This document shows positions 1-63,019 of a stretch of 64,000 nt of DNA, in pieces. The stretch is taken from positions 2,824,501 to 2,888,500 of the forward strand of contig CP126192.1 of assembly GCA_030272155.1 (NCBI GenBank), read 5' to 3'. Origin of the DNA: Tetradesmus obliquus (lineage: Eukaryota > Chlorophyta > Chlorophyceae > Sphaeropleales > Scenedesmaceae). The notes beneath the pieces were generated by a model. It searched no databases. It saw only the letters and a program-made list of their open reading frames with translations, and had not been told where the DNA came from. The position numbers were made by a program, and so were the translations under genes. The first letter of the stretch is position 1. Each line of letters begins with the position of its first letter.

Positions 1-6648
<6,648 letters not shown>

Positions 6649-23868: not shown

Positions 23869-34548
<10,680 letters not shown>

Positions 34549-50201: not shown

Positions 50202-51026
50202 GAGAATTCTTGGGATAGAGGCCAAACACGAGGGAGCTGCTGATCCTCACCGACATCTGTGAACAACTTGTCGATGACGTAAAGGCTGGAGCCCAAAAGG
50301 CGTAAAGTAGATTGACTGTTGAATCAAACAAGTAGGGTTCTGGCAGTGACACCGAGCTGCCCGGCGGCATGTCGGGAGTATGGAGGAGGAAAACAAGCCT
50401 TGAAAGCGTCCTATGCTATGTAAGTGAATGAGCATGATCCTGCGTGCCTGCTGAGAATTGCCTGCGAGTGCCTGTGCCTTGCCAAGGTCATGCGCAGCTG
50501 CTGCAGGCCTGCAACATGAGCCTGGGCTGGTTCACGTTGACAAGGCGTAGGTACTGCGCTACAGTTCCTTCAAAAACAGTTCCAATCACTGATGCACACT
50601 TTCTCATGCTTGTTTGGAACGTAATGACCAGCTGTGCCTTTGGAGCAATATGCACCGCAAGTGCTACCACACCACAAGTTGTTGTGACCGTTAGGTTTGT
50701 TTAATATGCCCGACCAAAAGCGTCAAAACACTTTCATGTGACTGAGTAAGAGTGCAGGCTAGGCGCTGGCTGCTGCTCCGATTCACACAAGTCAATGATC
50801 GTCAAAGCGTCAAACCCTGCAGACCAATTGTCACTCAGGGAGCAGTCCGATCGCCGTGGCTGTGATCGCAGATCACTGCCTGCCTTTGTTTGCGGCCTTC
50901 AACGTCACACTAGCAGCACTCCAGCTTGCTGGGCCAGACCAGACAGCTGAGTACTGTAGCGGTGCACCGCTGTCCGGGGAGGGACAGCGTGCTAATTATA
51001 TAAAACGCTGTTGTTTGGCCGTTTAA
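50202..51026. other. Divergent promoter region of PIG-P and the profilin-fusion gene
   Basis: An 825-base head-to-head spacer. Near the right end it holds a 14-bp palindrome, an inverted repeat and a TATA box, described separately. No exon seen. Confidence 0.6.
50958..51003 (+). promoter_or_regulatory. Palindrome, inverted repeat and TATA box of the profilin-fusion gene
   Basis: AGCGGTGCACCGCT (50958-50971) is a perfect 14-bp palindrome. CTGTCC (50970-50975) and GGACAG (50982-50987) form an inverted repeat around 6 bases. A TATATAA box follows at about 50997-51003. With a usual 25-30 base TATA-to-start distance, transcription would begin near 51027, so the in-frame ATG at 51051 may be the real start. 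Confidence 0.6.
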
Positions 51027-52510
51027 ATGAACAATTTTCGCGCGCTGGCCATGAGGCCAGCTGCGCTACATCCTCTCTGTCCCGTGCGAGCGTTGCAGAG
51101 GCCCCTGCTGGAGCGGACGCTGCGTAAGCCTTCAAAGTCTTTCCTGAGACCCGTAAATGTCGGGTCTGCAAGCAGCGACCTGGTGGAGGTTTCCAGGGGC
51201 CCCGAGAGCAGCAGCAGCACACCTGGCAGCAGCCCTAGCAGCCCTAGTCCGCAGCCCCCTCCTGCCAGCCCCCAACCCGCACGTAAAAGCAGCAGGATCG
51301 TCTTCAACCCCGTTTATGTTATCCTGGGCGCGGTTGCAGCGATGGCAGCCGCTGCTGTTGCCATTTGGCTACACGGAGCAGCAGCTGCATCTCAAGCAGG
51401 GCAGGGCGGTGCAGCGGCAGCAGGCAGCACGCTCTCAGCTTCAGCAGCAGCTGCTGCTGTGGTACCTGCCCTGGCGAGCGTCTGGAAGGCTGTGGCATCT
51501 CCAGTAGCTGAAGTGCTGCACCATATGTTCATGGGCTGGCAGCACTGCTGGGTGGTCATGACAGCACACCCCAGCATGTCTGGCCTGCAGCAATGCTCAG
51601 AAGTGGCCCGCCAGATCAGCGCTGTCGTGCCCTGGCAGATAATTGCAGCAGTAGCTGCGATAGCTGCCACTGCCTTGAGCATCAGGAGGCAAATGGCAAA
51701 GGAGAAGGCGGCGATCAGGTGGGTAGTGAAGTTGATGTGCAAGTCTGGCAGTGCACTTGAGCACATGTGTACACTGCTGTGTGCAAGCATATCTGTGCAT
51801 AGATGCAGGCACACGGCAAGCGCATATGGGCCACTGCTGCACTTTGAGCAGCAGCATACTACTGCACATACCAGCAGCAGTCGCTCACGCTCGTGCGCAT
51901 ACGATAGGGTGTCAATAGCTCTTTGTACTTGGGCAGTGATCAAAACACTTCTGTATGCCTGCCGTTGCATTGCTGCCCGCCAAACTGCCAGGTCGCACTA
52001 CCAGCAGCAGCTGGAAGCAGCCATGCATGTCCTGCAAGCACAGCAGCAGGCCGACATAGCTGACCTGGCACAGCTCAACGCTTTCCTGCAAGACCTTGGC
52101 ATACCACCCGTGTCTCCTGCAAGCCCAGCAGCAGCAGCGGCCAACGGCAATGGCAGGGTTGCAGCATCACCTGCCCCAGGGCAAGGCAGGCAGCAGCAGC
52201 AGCAGCAGCAGCGAGCAGGGCCGATGGTGGAGCTGCGGCTGCGGCTGCAGAACCTGCGTGGGGCACTGGAGGCACGTGCGAGGTCGCAGCGGGATATGCA
52301 GCAGCAGCTGGAAGCACAGGTCAGTGCAGTGCAGCGAACCCACGTGCATGTTTGGCTGCATTCTAGCAGTGACGATGGTGTTTGTTACGTGATGCGCTTG
52401 GGTTCCCTTTCTGTCTTGGCTCCAACATATTTGGAGTTCCCACCGCGGTTGTTTGAAACACTGCTCGCCGTGACTTGCCCTCACTGCTGTATCATGAGCT
52501 TCTGATCTGC

Positions 52511-52567
<57 letters not shown>

Positions 52568-53478
52568 TTGATGGAGGTGCGGCAGCTGCGTGCCAGGCTG
52601 GCGTCAGCGGAGCAGCAGCTGATGGCAGGCCGCGGCTCGCCAGGCCCAGGCCAGGCTGCTGCTGCTGCTGCAGTGGACATGCAGCGCTTCCAGGTGCGGA
52701 GAGTTGCGCACATTGTTGACTTGCCCCGGACTTGTTCCGCGAGTGAGCAGCGCTGTGGAAGTGCGGTCGCATTCTTTAATGACAGCAGCATGGACACATC
52801 GGCCATTGACCTGCAGCTTTCTACTCGCACAGATGTTGCTTGCAATATATTGTAGTGCAAGCAATGCGTCTGGCTGCGCCATCTTGTCCTGCAGGAGCTC
52901 GCACAGATGACCAGCCGCCTCACTGCGCAGTGCAACCAGCAGCAGCAGCAGCTGGCCCAGCTGGCCGCAGCCAACAACTTGTTGCAGCAGCAGCTCGCGC
53001 AAGCCTACCAGGCCAGCGAGGCAGCCAGCAGCAACGGCCAGGGCGCTGGAGCAGCAGTCGCGCAACTCGCAGCTGACCGCATCATGCTGGCAGCGCAGCT
53101 GGCACAGAGGGACCAGCAGCTAGGGCAGCTGCAGGCGCAGCTGCAGGCTGTGTTTGGCCAGCAGGCGCAGCTGCAGGAGCTGCTGCGGCAGCGGGATGCG
53201 CTGCTGACTGCAGGGCAGGCAGAGGCGCTGCAGTACCAGCAGGCAAGGCAGCAGCTGCAGGAGAAGGAGCAGGAGCTTGCTCAGCTGATGAGCAGGGTGC
53301 GGCAGAAAGAGCAGGAGCAGCAGCAGGCGGCAGCAGCAGCAGCAGCCGCTGATGATGTGTCGGCGGGCTCAGCAGCAGCAGCAGCAGCGGCTTCCGCCTT
53401 GCAGGCGCAAGTTGAGACGCTGGAAGCACAAGTAGCTGACCTGCAGCAGCAGCTGGAAGCAGCAGCAGCAGCACCTAC

Positions 53479-53509
<31 letters not shown>

Positions 53510-56500
53510 ACGGCAGGCGATGCAGCTGCAGGTGATGCTGCTGCTGAGTTGAGGATTGAGCTGGCTCGAGTTGAGTCTGAGGCGTACGAGTTGCGCAGCA
53601 GGCTTCAGGAGATGCGCTCAGAAGTGCGCAACAGCAACCTCAGCACAGACATGCTGCAGCGGGACCTGCAGGCTGCCAGGGAGGCAGCAGCTGCAGCGAA
53701 TGATGAGGTGGCTGCGCTGCGGCAGCAGCTGCAGGAAATGTATGACCAGCAGCAGCAGCCTCTACAGCAGCAGCAGCCACAGCAGCAGCAGCAGTGGCAG
53801 GGTGAGGTGCAGCAGGAGGTGCAGCAGGGCTATGCTACCACTGTCCAGCCAGCAGCAGGTGCCAACGAGCAGCAGCAACTACAGCAGCAGCAGCAGGATC
53901 TCCAGCAGCTGCAGGAGCAGCTGTGGCTAGCAGCGCAGCAGGCTGAGGTGCTGCAGCAGCAGCTGGCAGCTGGGCAGGCTGGGCTGGCTGCTGCTGAGCA
54001 GCAGGCGCAGCAGCTGCAGCAGGCTGTGCAGCAGCGGGACCAGCAGCTGGCGGCAGTCACAGGTGCGGCACAAGCAATGTGGTTTGGCTTATGCATGCAT
54101 CCATGTGTGCATGTAGAGTTGCAGTGCATGCTTGCGTGCATGACGGTCCTTTTGACAGTTTTTTTGGGTGGCACTTGTTGACAGATGTATTGACTTGATG
54201 GGAACAAATCCCTGCGTCAATAGTAATGTCAGGTCTCCAGCAACAGCGCAAGCTGCCACCGTGGGGAGGCTGCACCTACAATGCTAGTGCTATGCGTGCC
54301 ATGTGAGTGGTGCCTGGCTGCTGTTGTTTGTTCCTTGCTGCTGCAGATGAGTTGGTGGCTGCACGCGGCCAGGTGGCCAGCGTAACTGAGCTCGCTGCTG
54401 CCGCCGAGCATCTGAGAGATGAGTTGGCTGCTGAGCTGGATGCCACGCGAGCACAGCTGGCAGGGGTGGCTGCAAAGGTGGAGGACGATGCAGTGGTGAG
54501 TGGGCCAGGCAGTGGCATGCGCTGCAACAGCAGCACATCGACAGCAGCGTGTTGCTTGTTTGTTTGTCTTTTTGTGGCAACCTCACAGCACTCGTGTGCC
54601 GGCTCAAGCAGGCGATGCCTGCATGAGACGTAACACTGTGCTCTCTGCCGTTGCCCGCAGCACAATTAACCGGTCTACCTTGTGTGTATGCTGTGCTCGC
54701 AACAGGGAGTGGCAACCTACATGCAATACTTTTTCCACTGAGTCGTCCTGTATCCATCAAGCGCCTGCTGCTTCACCCAACCTGCCTCGCTGTATGCTTG
54801 TGCCTATCAAGGTGTGCCGTGTGGTGCTGTGCTGCTGCTGCAGGCGCTTGAGGCTGAGCTCGCAGCCAGTGCAGCAGCAGCGCAGCAGCTGCAGGCTGAC
54901 TTGCTGGCAAAGGACGTGGAGGGCTCCATCCTGAGGCAGCAGCTGACAGCGGCGGCGCAGCAGCTGCAGCAGCTGTCGCAGCAGCTGAGCGCTGCACAGG
55001 CTCGCAGCAGTGAGGAGGTCAGCCAGGTGGGGGCAGCTGGCTTTACTATTTACATGCAGCTGTAGCTGCAGGCGTGGTTCTGCCATGTGCTCGAGTGCAC
55101 TTGGTTTAGTGCGGATGGCGCATGGTGAATGTTTATGGCGCTGTAGTGGCACTGGCCAAGTCCTGCTCGTAATTCAGTTGACGCGAGTCGACTGTGGGCT
55201 GCTGCTGCTTGCTGCTGCTGCTGCTTCAATTCTTGCAGGTGGCTGCTGACCTGGCGTTGATGAGCTCAAGAAACGCTGAGCTGGAAGCTGAGTCAGCGTC
55301 ACTAAAAGAGCAGCTGGCAGCAGCAGCAGCGACGACAGAGCAGCTGGCAGCAGCACAAACCGAGCTGCAGGCAGTTCAGCAGCAGTACAATGAGGCGCAG
55401 CAGCAGCTAGCCAGTAAAGATGATCAGCTGGCGGCAGCAGCAGCTGAAGCTGAAAGCCTTGTGGCTCAGGTTTCAGGGCTTGAGCAGACGCTGCAGGGGG
55501 TGGAAGGTGCGGCAGGGCAGGGCCAGCAGCTGCTGCTGCAGTACAAGCAGTCTGTGGAGGAGCTGGAGTCACAGAAGCAGCATTTGCTGAGCCAGATTGC
55601 AGCGGCGGCTGCTGCTAAGGAGTCTGCTGCCAGCAAGGTGGGTGGTGCTGGGTTGTCAAAGGTGATGAGCAGGCTTGTGTGGTTTTGCCTGTTTCTGTGT
55701 CAGGCTGTGTAACCTCATTTCATCAAAGTCGAGGTGTCAGCTGCTGACCATGAACCACTGCAGCCCTTGCTTGTGCTGCATTAGTGTGCAAGACATTTGG
55801 TAGCACTGCTGCACCCTACTGTGTAGATTTTTGCAAATGATAGCCGCCAGCCATGTTGCCCACCACAGCTGCCACAGCCAGCGTTTGATAACCCTTAATT
55901 TCTGCACTGACGCCGCCTGTGCTGCTGCCATGCTGCTGCTGCCACCCCCACAGGCCAGCTTCAGCAGCAGTCAGCTTGAGGCCGTGTCACAGCAGCTGGA
56001 GCAAGCCATCCAGCAGAGGGAGGCAGCAGCAGTGGAGCTGGCGTCGGTGGCGGCGGCAGCAGCAGCAGCAGAGGGCCAGCTGGCGGCTGCGCGGCAGGAG
56101 ATGGCAGGGATAGAGGCGCAGCTGAAAGAGGCCGCAGAGAAGGTGGGTAACATGGGTGAAATAGAAAGCAACCGCCGCATCCGGAAAGAGGCACGTGCTG
56201 TGCATCGAGGCAGGGAAGTTGCGCGGAGAATGCAGGGGATGCGGGGGGACGTATGCTTGTCTGAATGTTCAGCTGTGCGCACTGGGTATGTGTGCGCAGG
56301 ATTCTATGCTGCCAGCACATAACAGTAGAAGCGCTTTGTGAGTTGCGTTGGTTAAAGCCGCAACAGTATGGGCTCTGTTCCCTTTTTGCTCAACTATTTG
56401 CTGAGCTCCTCACACTGACACCTGCCCATTTTGTATTCAAATGCAGGCTGCAGCTGCACTGCAGGCGAAGGAAGAGGCAGCACAGCAGCTTGCAGCACTG

Positions 56501-59055
56501 CAGCAGCAGCTGCAGCAGCAGCAGTCACAAGCGGGTGGTCAGCAGGACACGCTGCAGCAGCAGGTGCAGCAGCTGCAGGGCGAGCTTGCAGAGCAGCAGC
56601 TGCAGTTTGACCAAGCCCAGCAGCAGTCAAAGAAGCAGCAGGCAGGGTTTGAAGCTGCGACAGCCGCATCTGAGCAGCTGCAGCAGGAGCTTGGCAGCCA
56701 GCAACAGCAGCTGTCTGCGGCACAGCAGCAGCTTGACAGCAGAGAGCAGCAGCTGTCTGCAGCACAGCAGCAGCTGCAGCAGCAGCAGGAGCAGCTTGAC
56801 GAGTGCAGCATAGCCCTTGCAGCAGCTGCAGACGTGCGGGATCAGCTGCAATCACAGCTGGCAACTGTGCAGGCAGAGCTGCAGCAGAAAGAGGCTGACC
56901 TTGCAGCAGCAGCAACAGCCAGTGCTGATCTGCAGCAACAGCTGCAGCAGAAAGAGGCTGATCTGGCAGCAGCAGCCACTGCCAGTGACAATCTGCAGCA
57001 ACAGCTGCAGCAGAGAGAGGCTGATGTGGTAGCAGCAGGCACCGCCAGTGACAATCTGCAGCAGCTGCTGCAGCAGAGTCAGCAGCAGCTGGCTGTAGAG
57101 CAGGCAGCGCTTGCTGAAGCCCAGCAGCAGGCGGCTGCTGCACAACAGCAGCTGGCTGAAGCACTGCAGAAGGCTGCAGATGCGCAGCATCAGGTAGGCC
57201 TCAAACAGTACTTGCAGCTGCAGCAATGGCATAGTAGGTGTGGCTGCTTGCACGTGCTTAAACATGTCATACTTGAGCTCCTAACACGTGCCAGAAGCTG
57301 TCTGGTATCAGACAGGGTAACAGCTTTGTATCAACTGTCATGTGTGCGATCTTGCTGCTTGTTGGACTGTGCTGCACAGGTGTCTGCTGTTCAGCAGGAG
57401 AAGGATGCGGCAGCACAGCAGCTGGCAACACTTCAGCAGCAACTAGAGCAACAGACGCAGCAGCTGCAGCAGCAGCAGGAGCAGCTGACTGCCTCACAGT
57501 CTGACCTGGCAGCAGCAACAGACAGCAGCAAGGATCTTCAAGAACAGCTCAGTGAAGTCAAGCCCCAGCTGGAACAGCGTGAAGCTGCACTGGCCGATGC
57601 ACAGGCAGCAGCACAGCAGCTGCAGCAGCAGGCTGCAGCAGCTACTGCTAAGGTGACCAGCCTGTCCAGTGCAGCAGCTGCAGCAGAGGCAGCAGCAGCT
57701 GCAGCAGCAGATAAGCAGGAGGAGGCGGAGGTGCAACTTGCAATGGTGCAGCAGCAGCTTGAAAAGACCAAAAAGCAGCTGCAGGAGCAGCAGCAGGGCA
57801 ACCAGCAGCTGCAGGCGTTGCAGCGGCAGCTTGACGAAGCTGAGAAGCAGCTGGCCAGCCAGCAGCAGCAAGGCAGGGAGAAGGAGCGGCAGCGGCAGGC
57901 ACTGCAGACTCAACTGGAGCAGCTGCAGGAGAAACAGCAGCAGCAACAACAGCAGCAGGAGCAGCAGGTGCAGCAGGCTCGACAGCAGCTGGATGAGTTG
58001 CAGCAGCAAGTGAAGAAGTTGACTGCAAGCTCACAAGAGCTGCAACAGCAGCTGGCAGCTGCTGAGCAGTCAAAGTCAACCGCTGAGTCAGCAGCCGGTC
58101 AACAGCAGCAGCAACTGCAGCAGCTGCAGCAGGAACTTGCTTACCTGAAGGCAGCCGCTGCTGCAGCTGCTGCTGACAGCGATAACGCTGCTAAAGCTGC
58201 AGCTGCTGCTGCAGACGCAAAACTGCAGCAGCTGCAAAAGCACTTGCAGCAGCTGCAGGAGCAGAAGAGTGCGCTGGAACAGCAGCTGGCGGCAATGAGC
58301 TCGACAGGCTCAGATGCAGCAGCTGCAGCTGCCGCAGCACAGCAGCAGCTGCAGCAGCAGCGCCAGCAGACGGAGGCCCTGCAGCAGCTGCTGCAGGAGA
58401 AGGAAGCTGCACTTGCTGCTCTGCAGCGCAGGACCACAGAAGCTGCAGACAGCTACACAGCAAAGGAAGAGCAGCTGCAGCAGGAGCTCGGAAGCATCAG
58501 TAAGCAGCTGCAGGAGGCTCGGCAGGCAGCTGCAGCGGCAGCAACAGCAAGCAAGCAGCTTGAATCAGATGTGGCAGCAACAAAGGAGGCAGGGGAGGGC
58601 GCAGCAGCTGCGCTGGAGGGCAGGGTGCAGCAGCTGCAGCAGCAGCAGGTTGCGGCAGTGCAGGCTGCGCAGGCACAGCTTGAGCAGGAGCAGCAGCGGG
58701 TGGCTGCGCTGCAGCAGCAGCTGCAGCAGCAGCAGCAAGCATATGAGGCAGAGCTGGTGGCAGTCAAGCAGCAGCAGCAGCAGCTTGATGCAAGTAAGGC
58801 TGAAACGCCGACAGGCAAGTCTGGTGCAAAGGGGCAGCAGGTAGCTGCCAAGACAGCAGCACCTACAGCAGCCAAGCCAGCACAAGCAGCGGAAGCACCA
58901 GCAGCGCCAGCTGTGGTGAAGCCAAAGTTTGCGGCCGGATCAATGAGCATTGCTGTTCAAGCTGCTCAACCCTCCAACAGCAGCAGCAGCAGCAGTGGTG
59001 GTGGCAAGGCGGCAGCTGGCGGTCCGCCTCCTGTTGCCTCCTCTGCTGCAGCCAA

Positions 59056-59091
<36 letters not shown>

Positions 59092-59638
59092 CGCAAGCAA
59101 CGCAGGCTCTGCATCTGCATCTGCTCCCGCTGCTGTTGCTAATGATGATGGTGGCAATGGCTGGCAGGTGTATGTTGATCGCTACCTGCTGATTGACCTG
59201 CCGGAAGGAGGCAGGCTGGCGCATGGCGCGATTGTGGGGCCTGACTCTGGCGTGTATGCATCTGACCCTAGCTTCCCAGCAGTGTCACAGACAGAGGCTG
59301 CTGCGCTTGCTGCATTGCTGACACAGCAGGTGGGAAGCAGCAATGCAGCAGCAGCGGCTGGCAGCAGCAGCAGCAAGGGCTCCGCAAAGTCGTTTGATGT
59401 GGCCATCGCAGGCAAGCAATATGAGGTCAGCATAGAGCAGCGGGAGGCTGCGCTACTGCTGGTGTGCAAGGCAAAAGGATCCGGGCTGTTTGGCATGGGT
59501 GGGGGCAAGCAGGGTGGGGTGGTGGCAGCCACAAGGCAGACGTTAGTAATCGGGCTGTGGGATGACAAGCGCGCTGAGCTGGGCTGTGGCAATGCAGTGG
59601 CAAGGCTGGCACAGGCGCTCGAGTCATACGGCTACTGA
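51027..59638 (+). CDS. Membrane-anchored giant coiled-coil protein with C-terminal profilin domain
   Basis: Exons 51027-51718, 51992-52319, 52568-52693, 52895-54062, 54347-54495, 54844-55026, 55239-55637, 55954-56142, 56447-57193 and 57380-59638, with closing phases, give 2079 residues. The N-terminus is Arg/Ala-rich, transit-peptide-like, followed by a Ser/Pro-rich stretch (about 66-88) and two hydrophobic segments (about 96-118 and 203-220). About 230-1850 is Gln/Ala/Leu/Glu coiled coil. Residues 1921-2079 are a profilin fold: NGWQVYVDRYLL, HGAIVGPDSGVYASDPSFPA, then QTLVIGLWDDKRAELGCGNA and the final ALESYGY. The Trp, Tyr and terminal Tyr of the poly-proline site are kept; a Ser/Ala insert of about 19 residues enlarges it. 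Profilin binds actin monomers and proline-rich proteins, so an organelle- or membrane-to-actin tether is inferred. The ATG at 51051 is an alternative start. Confidence 0.9.
52513..52563 (+). repeat. (CTG)17 at an intron 3' end
   Basis: Seventeen CTG units followed by ccag and the exon at 52568 (LMEVRQLRARL) of the profilin-fusion gene. Confidence 0.9.
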
Positions 59639-61354
59639 TTTGTGCAAGCTGGAAGTTTGCCGGCACAGCAGCAGCATGGGGTTGAGTGCGGGCGGCTGTT
59701 GCAGCGGTGCTGCAGGTTGTGTGCGTTGCTGGTGCTGCTGTGATTGTCTCCCGATTGCTGGCGACAGCGGTTGTATCAGTGGATGCTTTCATTGGGTCTA
59801 GGGCCTGGTTGCTATGGCAAATGCCGTGTGACTGTGTGTGAAGAAGGGTGGTGAAGGGTCACCGTGACCATTGCATCCCTGTGAAATGTATCCAGCACAG
59901 AATGAGGTGTGCATGCTGTGTGCTGTTTCAGGTGCTGAGATTGTGTTCTATGCTAGGCCAGCAACCTGAGAATGGTGCTTGCGACGGCACTTAATTGCAC
60001 GATTTGCATGTGATCCGCACTCCAGTTGCTGCACGATCATATTTCGGCTCCCTATGTTGACACGGTTGTGCCTGTACAGTGCCCCGAGGGCATCTCGATA
60101 GTCATCACGACGTTTCCACAACAGGTGCCCCGGCTCATTGATTATTGCGCTTGCCGCTTCTGCAATCAGTGACACTGTCCAGCAGCTGTGGAGGCCTGCA
60201 CCATATTGCGTAGCGCGCTCAGCAGTTGAATGCATTTCACCAAGCCCATCATTGCAGGCTTGCTGGGCATCTTCAGCAGATGCTTCCAGGTTCACGCTTT
60301 GGGTGTGTACCCAATGGATCCATACATGGATGGCTGCGTTGCATTACTGCGGGGTGTTGGCATCTGTGCAGCAAAGATGTGCGCGATATGCTGCGCCCCA
60401 CAGTGGGTTGTCTGATAGAGCCTTTTATTTTGCTGGTTGACAGAATGAAAGCAGGTTTCGGCCCTCAGATGATTTGTATTTGTATTGTTGTATTGCCAAA
60501 GCAACGACCCCAGACAGTTGACCAGATTGTACCATGCACAGGGAACGCTTGGGTGAATGGCTGTATATCAGTGTAACAGAAGCTTGGAACACCACCAGCC
60601 TGAGTGAAAAAAACACCAGTGATGCGCTGCCACGTGACGCAACATTGGTGTCAATTAGCCCAACGTGATTCGCTGCCACGTGACGCAACATTGGTGTCAA
60701 CCAGCTTGCGCTCAACAGATGCCATGCAGCAACATGTGGCGTGCACGCACACATTAGACAAGGTTCATCCTCCGCTGCGCATATTTCAGAGAAGACGTGG
60801 TTGCTGCTCCTCTCCCGCAGCAGCAGCAGCTGATCAAATACATGCTTACATGCACAATGCACTGCTAAGCAGGACAGCAGCAACTTGCTGTGCTCAGCAC
60901 GTGCTGAGTGCAGCAAATGCGTGCAAAGTGATTCAGTTTGTGTTGCCTGCTGGTGCCGTTCACACATGTTATTGTGTGCACATGCTGATAGACATAGCAA
61001 CGACGTTGAAAACAATTTGGACACAATCTGATCTGCCCTAGCAACACCAAACAGACAGCGTTACAAACAGCACAACAATAATAACACGACCTGCTGCAGG
61101 CATCAACGGCCAGGCCAAGTTCAAGCACGGCTGCGTACACCAGCTTTGACCAGGCTTATACAGGGCTGCTCAATCAACAGAATCATCGCACTGCCTGACA
61201 TGCACATGAACCAGCACAACAGCCCACAGCACGCAGCACACAGCAGCGCGACATCCTTTCCACGGCGCTACACTGCACGCCCTCAAGCCGCACTCAGTGA
61301 CTGCACATTGTGTGAAAGCACCACACCCCCTCATCCGCCCTGGCCAAGCACACT
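59639..61354. other. Convergent intergenic region
   Basis: Lies between the 3' ends of the profilin-fusion gene and the F-box-like LRR gene. A 30-bp perfect direct repeat containing CACGTG occurs at 60625-60654 and 60671-60700. TTACA near 61071 would read TGTAA for the minus-strand gene. No exon seen. Confidence 0.55.
60625..60700 (+). repeat. Two 30-bp perfect repeats containing CACGTG
   Basis: cgctgccacgtgacgcaaca… occurs at 60625-60654 and 60671-60700, offset 46 bases. CACGTG is the G-box core, but the site lies between two 3' ends, so a promoter role is doubtful. Confidence 0.8.
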
Positions 61355-63019
61355 TCACTGCAGCGAGAAAGTGAGGCCACCCACACGTATCTCTCTCAGT
61401 GCTTCACACCGCTTCAGCGACACATGCCCCGCCACCTGGCAGTTGGACAAGTCCGGCAGCTGCTGCAGGCTGCTGCAGCCCTCGACATACAACCCCTTCA
61501 AAGAGGCTGGCAGCTCTGGCAGCTGCTGCAGTGCCTTGCAGCCATTGAGCTGAAGATGCTCAAGCGTAGGTGGCAGGTGCGCAGGCAGCCGCTGCAGGGC
61601 GCTGCACCACCTGCAGTCAAGGTGTATGAGGCCAGCAGGCAGCTGCTCTGGCAGCTGCTGCAGCTGCGAGCTTTCTGATACATTCAACTCCTTGCAGCTG
61701 GGCAGAGCCGGTAGACGCAGACCTGGCTTCAGGCTGCACAGCAGCACCTCCAGGCGTGGCAGCGAGCCAGGCAGCTCGCTGATGGTTGTGCCGCGTATGT
61801 TCAGTGTCTTCAGTGTGTCTGTAGGCAGTTTGGGGAGCGTGGTGAGGCGTTCCAGCCGAACGGCCCGCAGGTGTTCAAGGCTGTATGGCATGTCTGGCAG
61901 CTCCTCCAGCCAGCAGCAGTAGCTGCACTCCAGCTTAATGATGCCTGTGTGAGCTAGCTGCGGCAGCTGTCCCAGTAAACGGCACCAGGAGCAGTCCAGG
62001 TGAACCAGTGCCGCTGGCAGCACTGGCAGCTGCAAGGTGGGTGACAGCGGGAGGTGGAGCAGGGCAGGCAAACAGCCAGCCAAATGCTGTGTCAGCTGAA
62101 CTGAGCAACAACAGAAGGGCAGCTGCCACTGACCGCAACAACTTTGTTACCATTTTTGGGGTGCATGGGTGAGCGATAAAGCCTAGAAGTAGCGCTTGGA
62201 GGGGCCCTTTCAATATAGTAGGACAGCATCAAGAGAACCCTGAACAAGGCTCAAACGCAGCCTACAAGTGTACACGGTGCAAGGACTGCTGCGTGTGAAT
62301 GCGCAGTCTATTTCAGAAGGATAGGCCGCTCTGTGAGGGCTTGGACTGCGTCTGTGCGACAAACACTTGCACAGCAACAGCAACAGGCTGCAGCACCGCT
62401 GTGTGCCAAGCATTTTGCATCAGCGTGGTTCTGCTGCCAGAGCTCACCTCTTTCAGCGCCCTGCAACCAGATATGTTCAGCCGCGTGAGGCCTTCGGGCA
62501 GCGCCGGCAGCTGCGCCAAGCTGTCATACATCGAGAGATCAGAGACGGCCTCCAGCTCAGCCAAACTCGGCGGCAGCTCTGGGAGACTCTTCAGCATGTG
62601 GCAGCAGTTGCATCTCAGTTTCTGCAGCGTGCGGGGCAGAGCTGGCAGCGCGCGCAGCTCCTCGCACTCTTCAAGGACCAGCTGCTGCAGCTGTGGTGGC
62701 AGCGGCGGCAGCGCCTCAATGTGCTCGCTGATGATGGTGAGGCAGGTCAGGTTGCTGCAAGGAAATGTCGGTGCAAGAACACAGTGGTTTGATTACCCGG
62801 CCGCAACCTGTATCAGACTATGGGGTTGAAAGCGCACAAGCACCAAGTTCATGTGTTTGCTTGCAAACCAAAGCAGTTTTCTGCTCCGCTCACAGCGCAA
62901 CTTGCTGTGCTACCCCTTCATCCCCCTCAGACAGCAGTGCATGGTATGTTTCCACTACAGCTGCTTCAGTTTGTGTCTTAAGTTGCTGCTGCGGCTGGAC
63001 AGTCGCTGTGCAGAGAATC

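Follow-up and report, generated by a model that had tools for sequence, protein, structure and literature searches.

Profilin is an old and widespread regulator of actin in eukaryotes, and profilins are normally free-standing, small soluble proteins of about 125–135 residues. A gene predicted on the forward strand of Tetradesmus obliquus contig CP126192.1 raised the question of whether a profilin has been built into a long, membrane-anchored coiled-coil protein in this alga and, if so, what such a protein would do. The gene lies at 51027–59638 (+) of the 64,000-nucleotide stretch analyzed here (the window; all positions are counted from its first letter), and its ten predicted exons give a 6240-nt coding sequence with one terminal stop and a product of 2079 residues. 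Elsewhere in the window, the ORF at 4548–5660 (+) gave strong matches to leucine-rich-repeat profiles, and the ORF at 61358–62146 (−) weak ones just above the cut-off; another at 62313–62792 (−) appeared leucine-rich-repeat-like by eye, and one of 631 residues at 28366–30258 (−) matched right-handed beta-helix and Chlamydia PMP-type repeat profiles above the cut-off.

An earlier note on this DNA, made from the letters alone, had proposed a profilin fold at the C-terminus of the protein and had named a profilin HMM search of the last 160 or so residues as a check. Residues 1921–2079 (59159–59635, +; the first Trp is residue 1922, encoded at 59162), used as a query consisting of nearly the domain alone, matched Pfam PF00235 over model positions 2–127 of 127 with 46.5 bits (E 5e-12; the curated cut-off is 25 bits), in agreement with the proposal. 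With the rest of exon 10 included in the query, the match fell to 39 bits (E 1e-9). The search of solved structures from Trp1922 onwards returned 24 matches with E ≤ 10. Of the first 22 (E 2.5e-9 to 0.034), 20 carry the name profilin, and the other two are PRF3 and the pollen allergen Art v 4.01, itself a profilin; the last two matches were WD-40 proteins (E 0.24 and 0.42). As an independent control, an HMM was made with three solved profilin chains together with the ordinary profilin of the same genome, the fusion domain being left out. It gave the domain 52.9 bits versus 8.5 bits for the best of 5000 shuffles, and a chance match to profilin was rejected on these grounds. Of the 639 window ORFs of at least 60 residues over which the control HMM was run, the ORF carrying the domain was the only one among the eight best matches listed. 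An AlphaFold2 model of the domain, made without an alignment, was too low in confidence for use (pLDDT 37.2, pTM 0.29).

As judged from profile comparisons, the C-terminus is a full-length, divergent profilin domain. With the profilin family it shares the match to the full-length model, W3, Y6, the AI-G-D--V-A---FP core, and the terminal Tyr; it differs in forming the C-terminal part of a 2079-residue protein and in its low-complexity inserts. Unlike a free-standing protein of about 125–135 residues, it is a domain of about 158 residues in frame with 473 residues of coil, and we therefore call it a profilin domain set in a novel architecture rather than a profilin. Its identity to ordinary profilin is 23–32%, and the persistence of a full-length open frame at this distance argues for selection.

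The join between the domain and the coiled coil was clear from the reading frame. Exon 10 (57380–59638, +; stop at 59636–59638) encodes, in one frame, the coil's final 473 residues followed by linker and profilin; this frame contained no stops from 57380 to 59161, versus 10 and 24 in the other two frames. The coding frame is open from 56405 to 59638 (1077 residues). At the level of the open frame, the profilin–coiled coil join is a true fusion, and since coil, linker, and profilin share one stop-free exon, this part of the fusion is independent of splicing. The linker, residues 1801–1920 (58799–59158, +), is rich in Ala, Ser, Gly, and Pro and contains 8 K/R versus 4 D/E when counted to residue 1921 (Gly). 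Its third-position GC is 0.38 versus 0.63 in the coil and 0.64 in the profilin domain, a difference that we counted against a tether made from a single gene. An in-frame ATG at residue 1849 would allow the profilin part to be produced from its own internal start, or it might be skipped by splicing, the linker being read through on paper only. We consider separate expression of this kind very improbable: the frame from coil to profilin is stop-free, so that an unspliced transcript stopping short of the profilin region would be left without a stop codon, and no TATAAA was found nearby.

The hydrophobic segments of the N-terminus would be joined to the coil–profilin part only through predicted splicing. 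In the gene model, exon 1 (51027–51718), whose ATG stands directly after an in-frame TAA, carries the start, the basic transit-peptide-like N-terminus, and both hydrophobic segments. The coiled coil begins in exon 2 (51992–52319) and continues through exons 3 (52568–52693), 4 (52895–54062), 5 (54347–54495), 6 (54844–55026), 7 (55239–55637), 8 (55954–56142), and 9 (56447–57193), all on the + strand. All nine introns have GT-AG ends. Retention of seven of them would bring in one to five in-frame stops each; introns 1 and 9 contain none, and their removal is hence less certain, with an effect on internal length only. The sole TATAAA box on the + strand within 50500–61500 lies at 50999–51004, just 28 nt 5′ of the first ATG, and in view of the usual distance between TATA and start, translation may begin at Met9. 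The first TGTAA (the green-algal poly-A signal) 3′ of the stop is at 60572–60576 (+), 934 nt after it.

A second + strand TGTAA, at 55708–55712, lies within intron 7 (55638–55953) and coincides with the stop met on reading into the intron; a shorter anchor-plus-coil product is possible there. The same TGTAA, together with the in-frame TAA encountered on retention of intron 7, may be taken to mean that the locus consists of two transcription units, an anchor-and-coil gene ending near this intron and a downstream coil–profilin gene, which would place profilin on a coil without a membrane anchor. However, exons 7 and 8 join in frame through GT-AG sites, no TATAAA was found on the + strand from 50999 to 61500 beyond that at 50999, and a TGTAA can arise by chance. 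Two units thus seem improbable, and a single gene is retained as the basis for what follows.

Between anchor and linker, residues 231–1800 showed a 3.5-residue hydrophobic periodicity of 0.605 versus a shuffle mean of 0.152 (n = 100, z 24). Among the 14 periods tested, 3.4, 3.6, and 3.7 were also raised (z 15, 18, and 6, respectively), the other ten lying between z −2.8 and 0.9. The coiled coil, put at about 1600 residues in the earlier note, comes to about 1570 residues, over which the 3.5-residue repeat is very strong. Together, Q, A, L, and E account for 70% of its composition. With the coiled-coil rise of 0.15 nm per residue, the rod, if unbroken, would reach about 230 nm. CAG-type repeats are common across the gene (34 rows in the tandem-repeat listing), and the coil was also considered as the mere translation of such repeats. 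This was rejected: over 57380–58790, the 3.5-residue periodicity was 0.633 in the coding frame versus 0.137 and 0.041 in the other frames, and these contain stops. Exon 9 carries a 63-nt tandem repeat at 56877–57077 (3.2 copies, 89% match), whose unit of 21 residues corresponds to three heptads.

Hydropathy analysis of the N-terminus located the two hydrophobic segments that had been noticed before, at residues 95–117 (51309–51377, +; 19-residue Kyte–Doolittle maximum 2.28) and 199–219 (51621–51683, +; maximum 1.98). A third, weaker hydrophobic stretch lies near residues 134–161 (Kyte–Doolittle 1.53). Residues 1–50 (51027–51176, +) hold 9 K/R versus 1 D/E and contain the best amphipathic window (28–45); the windows starting at 26–30 had the top hydrophobic moments among the first 45, and the best of them was matched by 0.1% of the windows of the whole protein. 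On charge make-up and hydrophobic moment, the N-terminus looks like a plastid or mitochondrial transit peptide. No twin-arginine (RR) motif was found in residues 1–94.

The positive-inside rule for membrane protein topology was applied to the charges around the two segments. Ahead of segment 1 stand R86, K87, and R90, with no acidic residues over 85–94; after segment 2 come R220, R221, K225, K227, and R231 with one E, and the 81-residue loop between the segments is almost uncharged (2 K/R, 2 D/E). Basic residues at the outer ends of the pair and a near-neutral loop favour a hairpin, with both ends of the protein on the same side; taken as whole stretches, the flanks are mildly basic (4 K/R vs. 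3 D/E over 51–90 and 5 vs. 4 over 220–262). A search of the genome with the N-terminal 269 residues gave nine matches with E ≤ 10, two of which were the gene itself; the other seven were weak (best E 0.0117), and five of the seven contained stops.

To the residues of the domain we applied a MAFFT alignment of the fusion domain with the three solved chains, which we take to be land-plant profilins, and the genome's own profilin, in the numbering of chain 5fds. The four references share 58 invariant positions, a count that leaves out the last residues, two of the reference chains being short at the C-terminus. The fusion domain keeps 26 of these and departs from 32, S2 being among the latter because the query piece was cut at the Trp (the preceding residue is Gly). 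The kept invariants are distributed as 14/25 at positions 1–60, 3/11 at 61–88, 5/12 at 89–112, and 4/10 at 113–131.

The poly-proline site of mammalian profilin is described, in the part of the source consulted, as Trp3, Tyr6, Trp31, His/Tyr133, and Tyr/Phe139, with Asn9 (PMC2694148). Three of the five aromatics are kept in the fusion (W3, Y6, and the terminal Tyr), whereas Trp33, corresponding to Trp31, is Tyr, and Tyr125 is Ala. The claim that the site is kept therefore holds for the most part, not fully. Tyr125 is the position at which we place the His/Tyr133 of the mammalian set, and the loss of this one of five aromatics was counted against a proline-gripping role. In the fusion, K71 is replaced by Q, R84 by M or V, G113 by L, N116 by G, and E120 by A; we take these positions to form the side contacting actin in plant and other profilins. 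A long glycine-rich insert lies in the R84 loop, where the alignment is unstable: MAFFT turned R84 into M and K86 into G, and the HMM alignment turned R84 into V and kept K86. As the two methods align this loop differently, loss of actin binding is not proven. Altogether, the substitution pattern makes poly-proline binding by the head plausible and actin binding doubtful. Mammalian PFN4 is reported to bind neither actin nor poly-proline (PMC2694148), which sets a precedent for a profilin being retained though it does not bind actin.

The remainder of the genome (104.66 Mb, 17 contigs) was searched for the proteins with which such a domain might share its work. The profilin profile found three places with E ≤ 1, two of them above the cut-off: an ordinary 136-residue profilin on the contig labelled C1 (121.8 bits) and the fusion on C2 (43.9 bits in this genome-wide search). 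The third, on C9, was weak and below the cut-off as found (19.1 bits). Spliced by hand, this profilin-like gene (C9:4460324–4463434; exons read at 1302–1403, 1504–1599, 1887–2020, and 2269–2341 within the locus) reached 28.7 bits versus the cut-off of 25; it has no N-terminal Trp, and we regard it as reminiscent of the PFN4-type profilins. Actin matches were found at 21 places, many of which are exons of a few genes, and formin FH2 matches at three places with E ≤ 0.01, one above the cut-off, which suggests, at the level of sequence matches, a genome with the usual actin system. Given the separate ordinary profilin and the actin and formin matches, the fusion is a second, derived profilin. One copy of its domain was found in the genome: among 12 matches with E ≤ 10, the next best (E 3e-6) fell in the ordinary profilin, on its N-terminal third, and the remaining ten had E 0.07 or worse. 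No relatives of either the fusion domain or the ordinary profilin were confirmed in the viral and prokaryotic contig collections, a result without bearing on algae.

These data bear directly on the function first proposed for the fusion, the delivery of profilin–actin to an organelle membrane. The presumed actin-side residues are changed, and an ordinary profilin is present for actin work, so that delivery of profilin–actin is not supported. The proposal needs a cytosolic head, which is at odds with the comparison to MFP1 made alongside it, and an intact actin face, which is doubtful. In its most concrete form, the anchor would sit in the outer envelope of the plastid or in some other membrane facing the cytosol, and the head would bring actin monomers to nearby formins or filaments. 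CHUP1, located in the outer envelope, binds both profilin and actin (PMC3867660), the genome has actin and formin FH2 matches, and the poly-proline aromatics are mostly kept, all of which suits a cytosolic actin tether. Nevertheless, we find it rather unlikely in the face of the five altered actin-side positions and of the 94 residues preceding segment 1, which are more transit-peptide-like than signal-anchor-like.

The earlier note had likened the layout to CHUP1, which has a coiled coil, and the N-terminal half to MFP1. The two comparisons conflict with each other, one pointing to the outer envelope and the other to the stroma. CHUP1 resides in the chloroplast outer envelope and binds actin and, through a proline-rich motif, profilin (PMC3867660). 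The fusion resembles it, by description, in having a predicted membrane anchor and a link to profilin; it differs in having the profilin built in and in an anchor of two segments placed after about 94 residues. Arabidopsis MFP1 is described as a thylakoid-anchored coiled coil that sites the initiation of starch granules; it combines a transit peptide with a Tat signal and a membrane segment, and its coil, believed to lie on the stromal side, would collect starch-initiation proteins there (PMC10801857). On hydropathy and periodicity, the fusion is like MFP1 by description in its transit-like N-terminal stretch, membrane segment, and subsequent long coiled coil, and unlike it in having two segments, a profilin head, and no twin-arginine before the first segment. 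Lacking that motif, the protein is not classed as MFP1, though it could work alike, as a coil standing out from a membrane and collecting a partner. If the N-terminus is MFP1-like, and a transit peptide as its composition suggests, the profilin head would lie in the stroma of the plastid and would not meet cytosolic actin.

Other known proteins provide partial parallels. Like mammalian PFN4, the fusion head departs from the actin site and is kept nonetheless; unlike PFN4, which the consulted part of the source describes as having lost its poly-proline site (PMC2694148) and which is free-standing, the head keeps most of the aromatics. The Chlamydomonas proteins SAGA1 and SAGA2 are plastid coiled-coil proteins acting as local scaffolds, but they carry starch-binding domains and Rubisco-binding motifs, and the portion of the source consulted makes no mention of a profilin domain in them (PMC13167743).

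We tentatively prefer, with somewhat less than even confidence, a membrane tether encoded by one gene, in which a divergent profilin head grips a proline-rich partner. The two hydrophobic segments would enter an organelle membrane as a hairpin, leaving both ends of the protein on one side, and the coiled coil of about 1570 residues would project from it as a rod. A flexible linker would present the profilin domain at the tip, and the head, through its mostly kept aromatic cleft, would grip the proline-rich segment of a partner and hold that partner away from the membrane. Actin binding by the head would be lost or weakened, with ordinary profilin covering the actin work. As to the organelle, we infer that the plastid interior, in the manner of MFP1, is somewhat more likely than the cytosolic face. 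In a speculative and on the whole unlikely extension, a profilin fold would be at work within the plastid, forming the stromal head of a tether that resembles MFP1 and sits in the thylakoid or envelope membrane; it would have given up actin and become a dedicated proline-peptide receptor that positions a plastid structure such as starch, the pyrenoid, or the nucleoid.

The gripped partner might also be the protein itself. The SPSPQPPPASPQP stretch ahead of the first hydrophobic segment (residues about 70–84) and a PPP in the linker offer sites at which the head could bind its own proline-rich stretch or the linker of a neighbour, joining the rods in a network along the membrane. Profilin ligands are quoted as having eight to ten prolines (PMC3867660), more than these sites contain, and residues 70–84 possibly lie near or inside the transit peptide; we hold self-gripping to be quite improbable.

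Among the literature matches listed (titles and the starts of abstracts, with few subscription journals), none described a fusion of profilin to a coiled coil or a membrane anchor. The parts are of known kinds and the combination appears to be new, although the fusion may already be present in databases without having appeared in print. If the protein resides in the plastid, a profilin domain would be found in a compartment for which the cited literature, as far as it was consulted, mentions none. A diverged profilin kept in a membrane tether would show the profilin fold as a fixed peptide grip, and such a tether would offer a direct way to ask whether the functions of profilin are separable from actin. 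The fusion suggests a use of the profilin fold as the gripping part of a tether, perhaps one in which its customary work with actin has been given up.
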